Positions 10,069 through 13,833 of a stretch of DNA of 64,000 nt are shown piece after piece. Both the position numbers and the translations under genes were made by a program. The notes under the pieces are model-generated. The model did not search any database. It worked only from the letters and a program-made list of their open reading frames with translations, and was not told the DNA's origin. The stretch lies in assembly GCF_900083545.1 (NCBI RefSeq), contig NZ_LT559262.1, positions 2,513,673-2,577,672 of the forward strand, in the 5' to 3' direction. Each line of letters opens with the position of its first letter. Position 1 is the first letter of the stretch. This DNA comes from Alistipes provencensis. Lineage in GTDB: Bacteria; Bacteroidota; Bacteroidia; Bacteroidales; Rikenellaceae.

Positions 10069-10809
10069 TTAGAGGTTCTTGAAATTCTTGTCGATATACG
10101 CCTGAAAAACCTCCTTGTAATTCTCGCCGATCGGTACATACTCCGTGTCGCTCAGGAAGATGCGCCCCTTGACGTAGGCTTTTATCATGCGCAGGTTGAC
10201 GATGTACGACCGGTGCACGCGCATGAACAGCTCCGACGGAAGCGCCGTCTCCATGTTCTTGAGCCGGAACAGCGTGGTGATGGTCGTGCCGTCGGTGAGG
10301 TGCATGCGCACATATTCGCCCTCGCTTTCGAGGTAGACGATGTCGCAGATCTTCACCAGCGAAACCTTGTAGTCGGCCTTTACGGAGATATACTCCTTGT
10401 CCTTGGGCAGCGCCTCCGATTCGCCCTCCTGAGGCGTGCGCTGGTTGTGGCGCAGCTCGTAGAGCGAGTTGGCTTTGGCGGCCGAGCGGCTGAAATCGGC
10501 GAATCCGAAGGGTTTGAGCAGGTAGTCCACGGCATCGAGCTTGAATCCCTCGACGGCATATTCCGAATAGGCCGTCGTGAAGATGATCATCGGGCGTTCG
10601 ATCAGCCCGCGGACGAAATCCACACCGCTCAGGTCGGGCATGTTGATGTCCACGAAGATCAGGTCCACACGCTGCCCGGTCAGCATCTGCTGCGCGTCGA
10701 GGGCGTTGTTGAACGTTGCCGCGAGTTCCAGATAGGGAATCTTCGAGATGTAGCTTGTCAGTTGACGCAGAGCCAGCGGCTCGTCATCGATGGCGATACA
10801 TTTAAGCAT
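10069..10809 (-). CDS. LytTR-family response regulator
   Basis: 246 residues. Receiver domain at residues 1-120 with acidic pocket IDDEP (Asp8, Asp9), phospho-acceptor Asp54 in FVDINMPD, the Thr/Ser switch in IIFTTAYSEYAVEGF and Lys in LLKPF. A LytTR DNA-binding domain covers ~140-246 (DIVYLESEGEYVRMHL, FMRVHRSYIVNL). The start overlaps the 3' end of the upstream kinase gene by 8 bp, so the two are translationally coupled and form a two-component system. Targets cannot be told from sequence. Confidence 0.9.
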   Translation of the reverse strand: MLKCIAIDDEPLALRQLTSYISKIPYLELAATFNNALDAQQMLTGQRVDLIFVDINMPDLSGVDFVRGLIERPMIIFTTAYSEYAVEGFKLDAVDYLLKPFGFADFSRSAAKANSLYELRHNQRTPQEGESEALPKDKEYISVKADYKVSLVKICDIVYLESEGEYVRMHLTDGTTITTLFRLKNMETALPSELFMRVHRSYIVNLRMIKAYVKGRIFLSDTEYVPIGENYKEVFQAYIDKNFKNL

Positions 10810-11869
10810 TGAGCGTCGGTATTACAAGTTTTACGGTATAGGTTCGCTCCTCCTCGCGGATGTCGAGCGTGTAGTTCTTTTCGCCGTAGATCAGGGCAAG
10901 GCGTTTGCGGACGTTGTCCAGTCCGATGCCGGCCTCCTTGGAGGGGGCCGCCGGGTGGCGGCTGTTAACGAGCGTGGCGGAGACCGTCTTGTCGGCATAG
11001 TCGATCCGCAGGTGGATGAACGACGGACGGTTGTAGCTGATGCCGTGCTTGAAGGCGTTCTCGACGAATACGATCAGCAGCAGCGGGGGGATCGACACCT
11101 GCTCGGGCAGGTCGCGGGGATACTCCACGCGGATGTCCACGTCGTCGGTGTAGCGGATGCGCATCAGTTCGATGTAGTTCTTCAGGAACTGGATGTCGCG
11201 GTTGAGCGAGATGATCTCGCGGCCCGAGTCGTAGAGCACATAGCGCATCATCTTCGAGAGCTCGATCACGGCGTTCTTGGCCGATTCGGTGTCGATGTCG
11301 ATCAGCGCGTGGATGTTGTTGAGCGTGTTCATGAAGAAGTGCGGGTTGATCTGGTACTTGAGGTAGTCCATCTCGGCCTGCAGGTTCTGGCGCTTGAGCA
11401 CCTCCATCTGCTGTTCGTCGCGCATCGACTGGTAGATGAGTTTGATACCCGTGTTGGCGCCGGTCATGAAGAAACCCAGCACCACGCTCCAGTACATTTC
11501 CAGATTGGAGAACGATGCCTTGCGGTAGGCGTCGAGCGCTTCGGGATCGGCCTGCTTGAGGAGGTGGTCCGATAAGTGGTCCTCGTAGACCTGCACCAGC
11601 CAGAAGACGCTGATAATCAGTGCGAGGTTGCTCACGAGGTATTTTCCGTACTTGCGCCGGAGCATGTAGCGCGGCGCGATGATGGCGTTGTGGATGAGGA
11701 AGATGATCAGATAGGGGGCGATCTGCCGCCAAGCGATCAGCACGTTCTCCAGATTGACGTGCATCTCCGACATCATCTGGGAGTTGAGCACGGGCACCAG
11801 AATGATGGCCGCCCAGACCATCACATAGAGCAGGTTTTCGCCGATGGCTTGCTTTTTCTGGATTTTCAT
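10802..11869 (-). CDS. LytS/YehU-type sensor histidine kinase
   Basis: 355 residues. Four hydrophobic membrane segments lie in residues ~15-150 (for example LLYVMVWAAIILVPVL and YLVSNLALIISVFWLV). Then comes a His_kinase domain with QINPHFFMNTLNNIHALI (phospho-acceptor His) and an ATPase domain with VFVENAFKHG and GIGLDNVRKRL. This is the usual partner of LytTR regulators, and the regulator gene overlaps its stop. The -7 box TATCTTTG lies only 5 bp upstream of the ATG, so the mRNA may be leaderless. Confidence 0.9.
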   Translation of the reverse strand: MKIQKKQAIGENLLYVMVWAAIILVPVLNSQMMSEMHVNLENVLIAWRQIAPYLIIFLIHNAIIAPRYMLRRKYGKYLVSNLALIISVFWLVQVYEDHLSDHLLKQADPEALDAYRKASFSNLEMYWSVVLGFFMTGANTGIKLIYQSMRDEQQMEVLKRQNLQAEMDYLKYQINPHFFMNTLNNIHALIDIDTESAKNAVIELSKMMRYVLYDSGREIISLNRDIQFLKNYIELMRIRYTDDVDIRVEYPRDLPEQVSIPPLLLIVFVENAFKHGISYNRPSFIHLRIDYADKTVSATLVNSRHPAAPSKEAGIGLDNVRKRLALIYGEKNYTLDIREEERTYTVKLVIPTLNA

Positions 11870-11873
11870 GCTT

Positions 11874-11881
11874 CAAAGATA
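11874..11881 (-). promoter_or_regulatory. -7 box TATCTTTG directly before the LytS-type gene
   Basis: Reads TATCTTTG on the minus strand and ends 5 bp before the start codon, so initiation would fall at or next to the ATG. Confidence 0.5.
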
Positions 11882-11966
11882 ATAAAAAAAGCCGAACGGT
11901 TCCAAAACCGAATTGCATACGGTCAGGCAAAGTTTTCCGGCAAATAAAAGTACCGCGTTGCGGCAC

Positions 11967-11996
11967 AAAAAATCCCCGGCTCTTGCTGAACCGGGG
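11967..11996 (-). terminator. Intrinsic terminator upstream of the LytS-type gene
   Basis: CCCCGG/CCGGGG hairpin with an 11-base loop, followed on the minus strand by a run of T. Second of two tandem terminators after the acyl-CoA ligase gene. Confidence 0.65.
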
Positions 11997-11999
11997 AGT

Positions 12000-12102
12000 A
12001 AAAAAAGCAGGTAACCGAACTAATTAGTGACGCCTCATTTGTTAGAAATGGATTCAAGTGACTATGAAGAATTTGGGATAGAGAATCCAAGTGGTTACCT
12101 GC
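12000..12102 (-). ncRNA. Candidate structured RNA with its own terminator tail
   Basis: After the ligase stop, the minus strand has GCAGGTAACC (12102-12093) pairing perfectly with GGTTACCTGC (12016-12007), which is followed by seven T. The roughly 76 nt enclosed hold an inner pair TGGATTC/GAATCCA and a perfect ACTAATTAGT palindrome. A 10 bp closing stem plus T-run around a structured insert looks more like a small RNA or 3'-UTR-derived RNA than a plain terminator. No known family was recognised. Confidence 0.45.
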
Positions 12103-12111
12103 CTGGGTCGT

Positions 12112-13833
12112 TTATTTGTTCAATAGCGATGGTGCATATAAGTAGCGTTTGATACTCCGTTTGGGGGTCTTTTCGAATTCCGTGGGGTAGATCGTGATCT
12201 CCGCGACCCGTTCGTAGGCGGCCAGTTGCGCGTTGAGCTCCTGCAGGTTGTTCTGCATGATCTGCGGCAGTTCCAGTTTGTCCACGCCTTCGTTTTCGGC
12301 CTGCTCGTAATCGGGGACCACCAGCGCCTTGAGACGGCCGTTGTCGCCTTCGAGGATCAGCGATTCGAGTACGAGGTACATGTTGTTTAACTTGTCCTCG
12401 ATCTCCTCGGGGTAGATATTCTGTCCGTTGCCCGAGAGGATCATGGTCTTCGAACGGCCGCGGATGTAAAGCGTGCCGTCGGGGTCCATCGTGGCCATGT
12501 CGCCCGTGTGGAGCCATCCCTCCTCGTCGAGAACTTTTTTGGTGTCCTTGTCGTTCTTGTAATACCCCTTCATCACATGTTCGCCGCGGACGAGGATCTC
12601 GCCGGCCTCGTGTTCGGGGTCCGCCGAGTCGATCTTCACTTCGAGCAGCCCTTTCAGATAACGGCCGCACGAACCCGCCTTGAATTCGTTGTCGGGGGTG
12701 AAGCTGATGAGCGGGGCGCACTCGGTCATGCCGTAGCCGATGGTGATCGGGAACTTGATCTTCATCAGGAACGATTCGGTCTCCTGATTCATGGGGGCGC
12801 CTCCGACGATGAAAATTCCGACGTTGCCGCCGAAAGCGTCCATCAGTTTCTTGCGGATCACCGAGTAGATGGCCGAGTTGAGCAGCGGAATCTTCATGGC
12901 GATCGACATCGGGCCCTTCTCCAGCATCGGGAGCACCTGCTTGCGGTAGACCTTCTCGAGGATCATCGGCACGCAGCAGATGATCGTGGGTTTCACGACG
13001 GCCATGGCTTCGAGCAGGATCTTCGCCGCCGGGATCTTGCCCAGCAGGGTGATGTGCCCGCCGACGGCCAGCGGCGCCAGAAAATCGAAGGCGCAGCCGT
13101 AGGCGTGTGCCAGCGGCAGGAACGACAGCGTGCGTCCGCCTTTCTGGAAATAGCGCTGCCCGGTCTGGGTGTTGACCATCGTCATGGCGAACACCACGTT
13201 GCCCGTGAGGTTGTTCACCGTGAGCATCACGCCCTTGGAGTATCCCGTCGTTCCGGAGGTGTAGTTGAGCAGGACGACCTGATCGTTGGGAATTTCGGGG
13301 TATTTGATGTCGTTGATGCTGAATCCGCGCGGGTATTTTGCGCGGTAGTTCTTCACGATGTCGCGCTGGAACTTGGAGAGCGACTTGCCGTCGCGCTCGT
13401 ATATCACATGGAAATCCGTGAGCGAAAAGACGGCTTCGATTCGTTTGATCTGGTCCTCCTCGATCACGTCCCAGAAATTGTCGCCCAGAAACAGCAGGCG
13501 GCTTTCCGAGTGGTTGATGATGTGGATGATGTCGGCGGGGGTGAAATCCTGCAGGATCGGCACGATCACGGCGCCGTAGGTGATGGTTCCTATGTAGGTG
13601 ATGCACCAGCGGGGATTGTTGCGGCCGATCAGCGCGATCTTGTCGCCCTGCTTGATGCCGGCTTTCTTGAAGAGCAGGTGCAGCTTGGCAATCTCCTTGG
13701 CCATTTCATAATACGAAAAGGTCTCGTCCTTGAAATAGTCGGTGAGGGCCGGCATTTCACGGTTTTCCCGAAAGCTCGTTTCGTATATTTTCAGCAGGTT
13801 CTCCTGTAACATATCACTTGCATTGAGTGCCAA
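12112..13833 (-). CDS. Long-chain acyl-CoA synthetase / AMP-binding enzyme
   Basis: 573 residues. ANL-superfamily adenylation enzyme: P-loop motif LLNYTSGTTGYSKGVML near residue 195, FLPLAHAYG, GYGMTECAPLISF around the A5 motif, GWLHTGDMA (A7 Asp) and a C-terminal Lys in KTPKRSIKRYLY. The length and the AMP-binding order fit long-chain fatty acid-CoA ligases (FadD/FAA-like). It activates fatty acids with ATP and CoA; the exact chain length is unknown. plsY, for phospholipid synthesis, lies upstream on the same strand, separated by its own promoter gap. Confidence 0.85.
   Translation of the reverse strand: MALNASDMLQENLLKIYETSFRENREMPALTDYFKDETFSYYEMAKEIAKLHLLFKKAGIKQGDKIALIGRNNPRWCITYIGTITYGAVIVPILQDFTPADIIHIINHSESRLLFLGDNFWDVIEEDQIKRIEAVFSLTDFHVIYERDGKSLSKFQRDIVKNYRAKYPRGFSINDIKYPEIPNDQVVLLNYTSGTTGYSKGVMLTVNNLTGNVVFAMTMVNTQTGQRYFQKGGRTLSFLPLAHAYGCAFDFLAPLAVGGHITLLGKIPAAKILLEAMAVVKPTIICCVPMILEKVYRKQVLPMLEKGPMSIAMKIPLLNSAIYSVIRKKLMDAFGGNVGIFIVGGAPMNQETESFLMKIKFPITIGYGMTECAPLISFTPDNEFKAGSCGRYLKGLLEVKIDSADPEHEAGEILVRGEHVMKGYYKNDKDTKKVLDEEGWLHTGDMATMDPDGTLYIRGRSKTMILSGNGQNIYPEEIEDKLNNMYLVLESLILEGDNGRLKALVVPDYEQAENEGVDKLELPQIMQNNLQELNAQLAAYERVAEITIYPTEFEKTPKRSIKRYLYAPSLLNK

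Follow-up and report, generated by a model that had tools for sequence, protein, structure and literature searches.

We propose that the hairpin on the minus strand at positions 12000-12102 of the window, by which we mean the whole 64,000-nucleotide stretch analysed (G000:C5:2513673-2577672 of the 3.8-Mb genome G000), is the window's member of an Alistipes family of sibling trans-acting antisense small RNAs that would pair with the translation start of an araC mRNA, a reading to which we assign a probability of roughly 0.73. The family itself, its stems and U-runs, the complementarity to araC, the stem covariation in a core relative named k and the co-occurrence of k with a word in the araC leader are the parts of this proposal that can be read from the genomes. 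A first-pass annotation of the same DNA had described a structured, terminator-ended minus-strand RNA after an acyl-CoA ligase gene and had emphasized the insert within its closing stem. The sequences support that description as the best reading, and the insert is the part that matters; beyond the earlier reading, it bears antisense seeds against the araC mRNA and the hairpin belongs to a multicopy family.

A long-loop terminator hairpin behind an acyl-CoA ligase gene

By direct reading, the closing stem is perfect over 10 bp and is followed by T7 on the minus strand (Table 1), exactly as first annotated; the insert, previously put at about 76 nt, is 76 nt (12092-12017), and the second, normal terminator that had been placed downstream is an ordinary hairpin. 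RNA folding of the hairpin gave -26.9 kcal/mol with a z of -2.35. A 10-bp perfect inverted repeat with a loop of 50-100 nt and at least six T in the next eight bases occurs once in the 64-kb window, and none was found in 10 shuffles of the window. The hairpin has the stem and U-run of an intrinsic terminator but, with its 76-nt insert, not the short loop of an ordinary one.

Within the insert, the TGGATTC/GAATCCA pair of the first-pass annotation, here helix A, can form in each of the 12 aligned copies, and both partners have changed at one of its base pairs. The strands of helix B (CUUCAU/AUGAGG) likewise pair in all 12 but hardly vary across the copies and, therefore, this pairing is weak evidence. 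Together the two helices would form an H-type pseudoknot. The palindrome noted earlier is present in the window (ACTAATTAGT at 12019-12028) and is not kept in orthologues, which read ACTAATAGT (G076) and ACTAAAAT (G061).

The stop codon of the ligase gene lies about 10 nt upstream of the hairpin, and no promoter box of the TAnnTTTG type, which we take to be the -7 box of Bacteroidota, was found within 200 nt upstream of the window hairpin's seeds. Because there is no recognizable promoter and the hairpin starts this close behind the stop codon, the window copy is most likely the terminator and 3' end of the acyl-CoA ligase mRNA. The same site carries the hairpin behind the orthologous ligase gene in seven genomes (G000, G086, G054, G152, G076, G045, and G061), or seven of the 48 ligase 3' flanks that were readable (30 flanks in one set, 17 of 20 in a second set, plus G076). 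REP-like repeats (GGTGCCGTAACGGCAC... and CAGCCCCTAAATCGGGCTTCTTAAGCCCG) lie in many intergenic regions of the Alistipes genomes examined, often directly behind hairpins, and in A. montrealensis a direct repeat of GGCAAAGCCC.AACAAGTTTGGCTTTGCCCGCAACTTTCACTATATTT lies between hairpin and kinase gene (L006:1640-1760).

Table 1 Positions of the hairpin elements, neighbouring genes, predicted target and related loci (window positions unless a genome or locus is named)
Feature	Position	Strand	Basis or comment
Closing stem, 5' arm GCAGGTAACC	12093-12102	-	Read directly; identical in 7 orthologues
Closing stem, 3' arm GGTTACCTGC	12007-12016	-	Read directly and RNA folding
U7 tract 3' of stem, intrinsic terminator tail	12000-12006	-	Read directly; rarity computed
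Helix A, 5' strand UGGAUUC	12083-12089	-	Pairing in aligned copies
Helix A, 3' strand GAAUCCA	12049-12055	-	Pair counts on aligned copies
Seed 1 AAUUCUUCAUAGU	12061-12073	-	Perfect 13-nt antisense to araC start region of same genome
Seed 2 GCGUCACU	12026-12033	-	8-nt antisense to AGUGACGC of araC leader
Helix B, 3' strand AUGAGG	12033-12038	-	Able to pair with CUUCAU
AMP-binding (acyl-CoA ligase) gene	12112-13833	-	PF00501; presumed parent transcript
Second, ordinary terminator hairpin	11967-11998	-	Read directly
Promoter-like box TATCTTTG, directly before histidine kinase ATG	11874-11881	-	Sequence
Histidine kinase gene, downstream of hairpin	10802-11869	-	PF06580
LytTR response regulator gene, after kinase gene	10069-10809		PF04397
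Predicted target gene, araC	G000:C5:1286818-1287738	-	
k of window genome	G000:C5:1997142-1997211		
18-nt match	G000:C5:315396-315413 (L039); G086:C15:193844-193861 (L038)		
XRE-type regulators	L241:11864-12097; L240:16676-16903; L137:5201-5476		HTH_3 in the two searched
230-nt RNA-like loci	L134:5122-5345; L136:5860-6085; L138:595-829	-; +; +	
230-nt RNA-like loci, further	L139:614-846; L140:500-715; L141:520-741	+; -; -	
REP-like repeats	L005:1640-1800; L084 after ligase; window 11900-11960; L137:5683-5794		

A multicopy family sharing two loop motifs

Several further hairpins of the window genome, and others in related Alistipes, carry the same loop motifs, AAUUCUUCAUAGU and GCGUCACU; their closing stems differ, and they usually have a U-run. 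A BLAST search of the window's own genome gave two more partial copies, and the paralogues found by BLAST have the loop core in common, closing stems that differ and yet still pair, and T-run ends. A covariance model of the core (R1) found 15 places in eight of 180 genomes of the genus, and a strict pattern, run against 84,980 species genomes in a scan that may leave out the window's own genome, found 12 places, all in Alistipes. In the window genome alone there are several paralogues, namely copies a (the window copy), b, c, d, e1, e2, and k. Copy d has a different helix A that is also able to pair (read by eye), and a copy in G170 has a promoter box of its own, with three places in its closing stem where both partners have changed. 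The two motifs are found in both orders among the copies, as expected for separate seeds. We therefore demoted our first reading of a fixed H-type pseudoknot once copies with permuted motif order had appeared.

The first-pass annotation had proposed covariation of the closing stem as a check on the RNA. Because the stem is identical in all seven orthologous hairpins, the direct orthologues neither support nor refute it by this route; the stems of the paralogues differ throughout and still pair, and in k four stem pairs are changed on both sides. Of note, a whole-element MAFFT alignment misplaced the outer stems and one sequence; we therefore counted pairs in the alignments of the core (A4) and of k (A8).

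How the copies were found bears on how their matches to araC are to be read. Copies a, b, and c came from BLAST and model R1 and copy d from local motif reading in a BLAST side match, in both cases when the target was not yet known. Copies e, g, h, i, and j and the G012 copy came from two-motif patterns, whereas k came first from TTGCGTCACT (four of five seed sequences) and afterwards from model R2. Direct reading of sequence gave G152k and the element at L140. For the copies chosen by motif, through the two-motif patterns or the TTGCGTCACT search, a match to araC is partly circular. L158 and e3, both in the window genome, share both motifs and were rejected as firm members because neither has a clear terminator stem; L149, L166, and L178, from the two-motif patterns, were rejected as copies because, judged by eye, they look like chance matches in coding sequence.

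At the gathering threshold, Rfam 15 matched neither the hairpin nor the related loci, and in the window gave only one tRNA elsewhere; matches below this threshold in the region (NsiR1, PyrR, anti-hemB, and TarB) overlap terminator hairpins. The strict hairpin pattern had 0 matches in viral contigs, and neither the window copy nor k matched a phage collection.

The core relative k is predicted to be a small RNA in its own right: it bears both seeds, has a promoter box of its own and shows covariation in its stem. Searching four further genomes with TTGCGTCACT led to hairpins with both seeds and G172 gave another, and the five-sequence covariance model (R2) then found k in 23 of 268 genomes of the taxonomic family; of its 22 genera, only that of the window was represented among the 23. 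A TAnnTTTG box lies 49-98 nt before the k hairpin at 22 of these 23 loci (0.92 expected by shuffling), and all 23 have a T-rich tail on the seed strand. Across 22 distinct sequences the 15-pair structure is 97.2% paired and the outer stem 99.1%, with four of its 10 pairs changed on both sides; none of 500 shuffles reached the paired percentage or the covariation score, a comparison in which relatedness alone can lift sequences above their shuffles even if they have no structure. In several genomes among those that we read, k adjoins a gene that, judging from its motif, looks like a patatin-like phospholipase.

Several further observations concern the surroundings of these loci. Both sister genomes contain, next to AAGCGTCACT, an 18-nt stretch identical to part of the hairpin (around CTTGGATTCTCTATCC), which is a possible remnant. 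Small XRE-type regulators of about 75-80 aa lie divergent to the seed-bearing hairpins e1, e2, and G086d, and one neighbour of the XRE-linked seed hairpins looks like a second acyl-CoA ligase gene. A second conserved RNA-like sequence of about 230 nt (GGTTAAGACAACC ... CTTGGGCGTAAGG ... CCTGCGCCCTTGC-T5, with a TAnnTTTG box) has no Rfam match and is present in two copies in some genomes; at several loci this sequence lies close to a small XRE gene and has a hairpin bearing the two seeds after it.

Complementarity to the araC translation start

In a strand-symmetric search of 180 genomes for both motifs in either order, we obtained 13 and 31 matches versus 1 and 2 in reversed controls, and 16 of the 31 were not hairpins but lay at the beginning of a single conserved gene, on its complementary strand. 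This gene encodes an AraC-family regulator (PF12833, PF00165, and PF02311) and was found in 126 of the 180 genomes at E 1e-60; its leader was read in 50 of the 126. The leader carries AGUGACGCAAC soon after the predicted promoter, and the start region is ACUAUGAAGAAUUC. In G000, a TAnnTTTG box is followed by about ten bases, AGTGACGCAAC, about 45 bases and the start ACTATGAAGAATTC. By this layout, UUCUUCAU is antisense to and faces the start codon region, and GCGUCACU is antisense to and faces the leader near the predicted 5' end.

At the araC start site the window copy matches over 13 nt, and its match to the leader spans 8 nt. Against 112 other gene starts of the same genome, taken by a crude rule as the first ATGs of long ORFs in the window and seven further pieces, its longest match was 8 nt in either region, with a mean of 5.4 nt at the start; because other leaders also reach 8 nt, the leader seed of the window copy is by itself not above background. 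None of 2000 shuffles of the window copy reached 13 nt at the araC start (maximum 11), and by duplex energy araC ranked 1st of 113. The other copies found when the target was not known matched the araC start over 11 (b), 10 (c), and 9 nt (d), compared with maxima over the 112 other starts of 8, 9, 9, and 9 for a, b, c, and d; copy d, therefore, only ties with background. Copy b has one more co-linear block, TTTTTCTGAA (10 nt), whose position follows the order of this araC leader. At the araC start, the matches of the motif-chosen copies of this genome were 14 (e1), 12 (e2), 16 (e3), and 11 nt (k). In the single-duplex energy model, araC ranked 4th of 113 for copy c and 60th, 16th, and 41st for the permuted copies e1, e2, and e3. 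Summed over eight small RNAs of the genome, among them e3 although it is not a firm member, araC scored 170 and the best of the 112 other genes 109.

In other genomes, the G012 small RNA from the two-motif search has a 12-nt match to its own araC start and matches of at most 8 nt to those of eight other genomes, and G152j matches its own araC leader over 15 nt. In the 22 k genomes with a leader, the longest matches of k to araC spanned 8-13 nt in the leader and likewise at the start; those of G012, G060, and G109 at the start and of G172 in the leader consist only of words outside the seeds. GACGCAA is present in the araC leader of all 22 k genomes versus six of 28 without k (Fisher 5e-9, a value that ignores shared ancestry). 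Complementarity to the translation start region, as expected of sibling small RNAs, was thus found with the exception of G076a, G045a, and G152b, which match their own araC start over 5, 6, and 7 nt and the leader over 8-10 nt. G170 has a copy, yet its nearest AraC (54% identity) is without both motifs.

These matches suggest how the RNA would act. The strong stem and U-run would end the transcript, so that the transcript of the ligase gene, or a piece cleaved from that transcript, would most likely end at 12000 with the hairpin, and the long loop would display the two short seeds. Seed 1 would then pair with the araC start codon region and seed 2 with the leader near its predicted 5' end, and this pairing would block translation of the AraC regulator. 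Seed 1 contains the helix B 5' strand CUUCAU and is, therefore, partly occluded; with some of the seed region tied up in helix B, the loop may have to open, or a helper protein may have to assist, before the seed is free. We infer that this RNA is transcribed, freed from its mRNA and paired with its target inside the cell, and that its effect is repression.

Competing readings, known systems and significance

Among other explanations, an ordinary ligase-gene terminator whose insert is neutral fares best, and we consider it unlikely. It agrees with a stem and U7 about 10 nt behind the stop codon and with the absence of the hairpin from 41 of the 48 readable ligase 3' flanks; a neutral insert is at odds with a loop that is better conserved than the stem across paralogues, whose two motifs recur in other hairpins and match araC far above background. 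Less probable again is a ligand- or protein-binding RNA, either a pseudoknot riboswitch or a binding site, to which the araC match would be secondary. The two helices, kept in 12 of 12 copies, do fit an H-type pseudoknot, but the permuted motif order in other copies breaks any fixed one, and Rfam offers no match. Moreover, the hairpin does not lie in the 5' UTR of a controlled gene as a riboswitch would, because the second terminator and TATCTTTG, which is promoter-like by the TAnnTTTG consensus, intervene before the kinase gene; with this box of its own, the kinase gene need not be read through the hairpin.

Because copies occupy different sites in sister genomes, we also considered a small mobile or repeat element of the MITE type dispersed in Alistipes intergenic regions. 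G000c is missing at its site in G086 and G086c at its site in G000, although the two are close relatives, and similarity among c-type copies begins at the stem. Conserved terminal inverted repeats are, however, not found, as the closing stems differ among types a, b, c, d, e, and k; no target duplication was seen by eye at the copies, most copies end, on the strand that bears the seeds, with a U-run, and covariation is present in the stem of the core copy k, so that we regard a MITE-like element as very improbable as a full explanation. Dispersal and antisense function are compatible and not exclusive. Finally, that the motifs are double-stranded protein sites shared by araC and the small-RNA loci is hardly credible, for even though AGTGACGC lies close to the araC promoter box, a DNA site should appear in both orientations, whereas in copies that end in a U-run it is the transcribed strand that carries the motif antisense to araC (e.g. 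at 23 of 23 k loci), and the second motif covers the start codon.

The preferred reading, a sibling antisense family, has parallels elsewhere. Small RNAs derived from 3' UTRs end in the terminator of their parent mRNA, and the window copy resembles them in starting about 10 nt after a stop codon and ending in a terminator stem; their seeds lie 5' of the terminator hairpin, whereas those of the window copy lie inside its loop. The Qrr RNAs of Vibrio are sibling, multicopy small RNAs sharing one target set. LhrC of Listeria and NgncR_162/163 of Neisseria are likewise described as several similar small RNAs with one target set, as in the Alistipes family; these two and Qrr belong to other hosts and are compared by description, and the Alistipes copies share seeds but not stems. 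In a limited literature search we found no Alistipes small-RNA family. The closest published system that we saw is FopS of Bacteroides thetaiotaomicron, which comprises 14 paralogous small RNAs, mostly intergenic with one 3'-UTR-derived member, that are bound by the RRM protein RbpB and repress translation of susC-like mRNAs by pairing near the start codon (PMC11697453). By analogy, the Alistipes family may work like FopS: both are multicopy paralogous small RNAs in Bacteroidota with pairing, predicted in Alistipes, near the start codon of the target. They differ in that the RbpB-bound FopS RNAs act on susC-like transporter mRNAs via one extended seed and the Alistipes family would act on a single predicted regulator mRNA via two order-free seeds; the hosts belong to different bacterial families, and FopS was compared by description. 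Sibling small RNAs as such are already known; what appears to be new, judging from sequence, is siblings with two order-free seeds inside terminator loops.

More tentatively, and with the odds somewhat against it, we speculate that terminator loops of unrelated transcripts, in the window a fatty-acid CoA ligase mRNA, and XRE-linked small-RNA modules bearing the same two seeds form a distributed antisense network that jointly silences one AraC regulator, the seeds being selected while their order and the stems are free; if so, the AraC level would report on many operons at once. For Alistipes, a common gut genus, the analysis provides a predicted small-RNA family with a named target and makes a two-seed, order-free antisense design testable. 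It also suggests that long-loop 'odd' terminators could be read as regulators.
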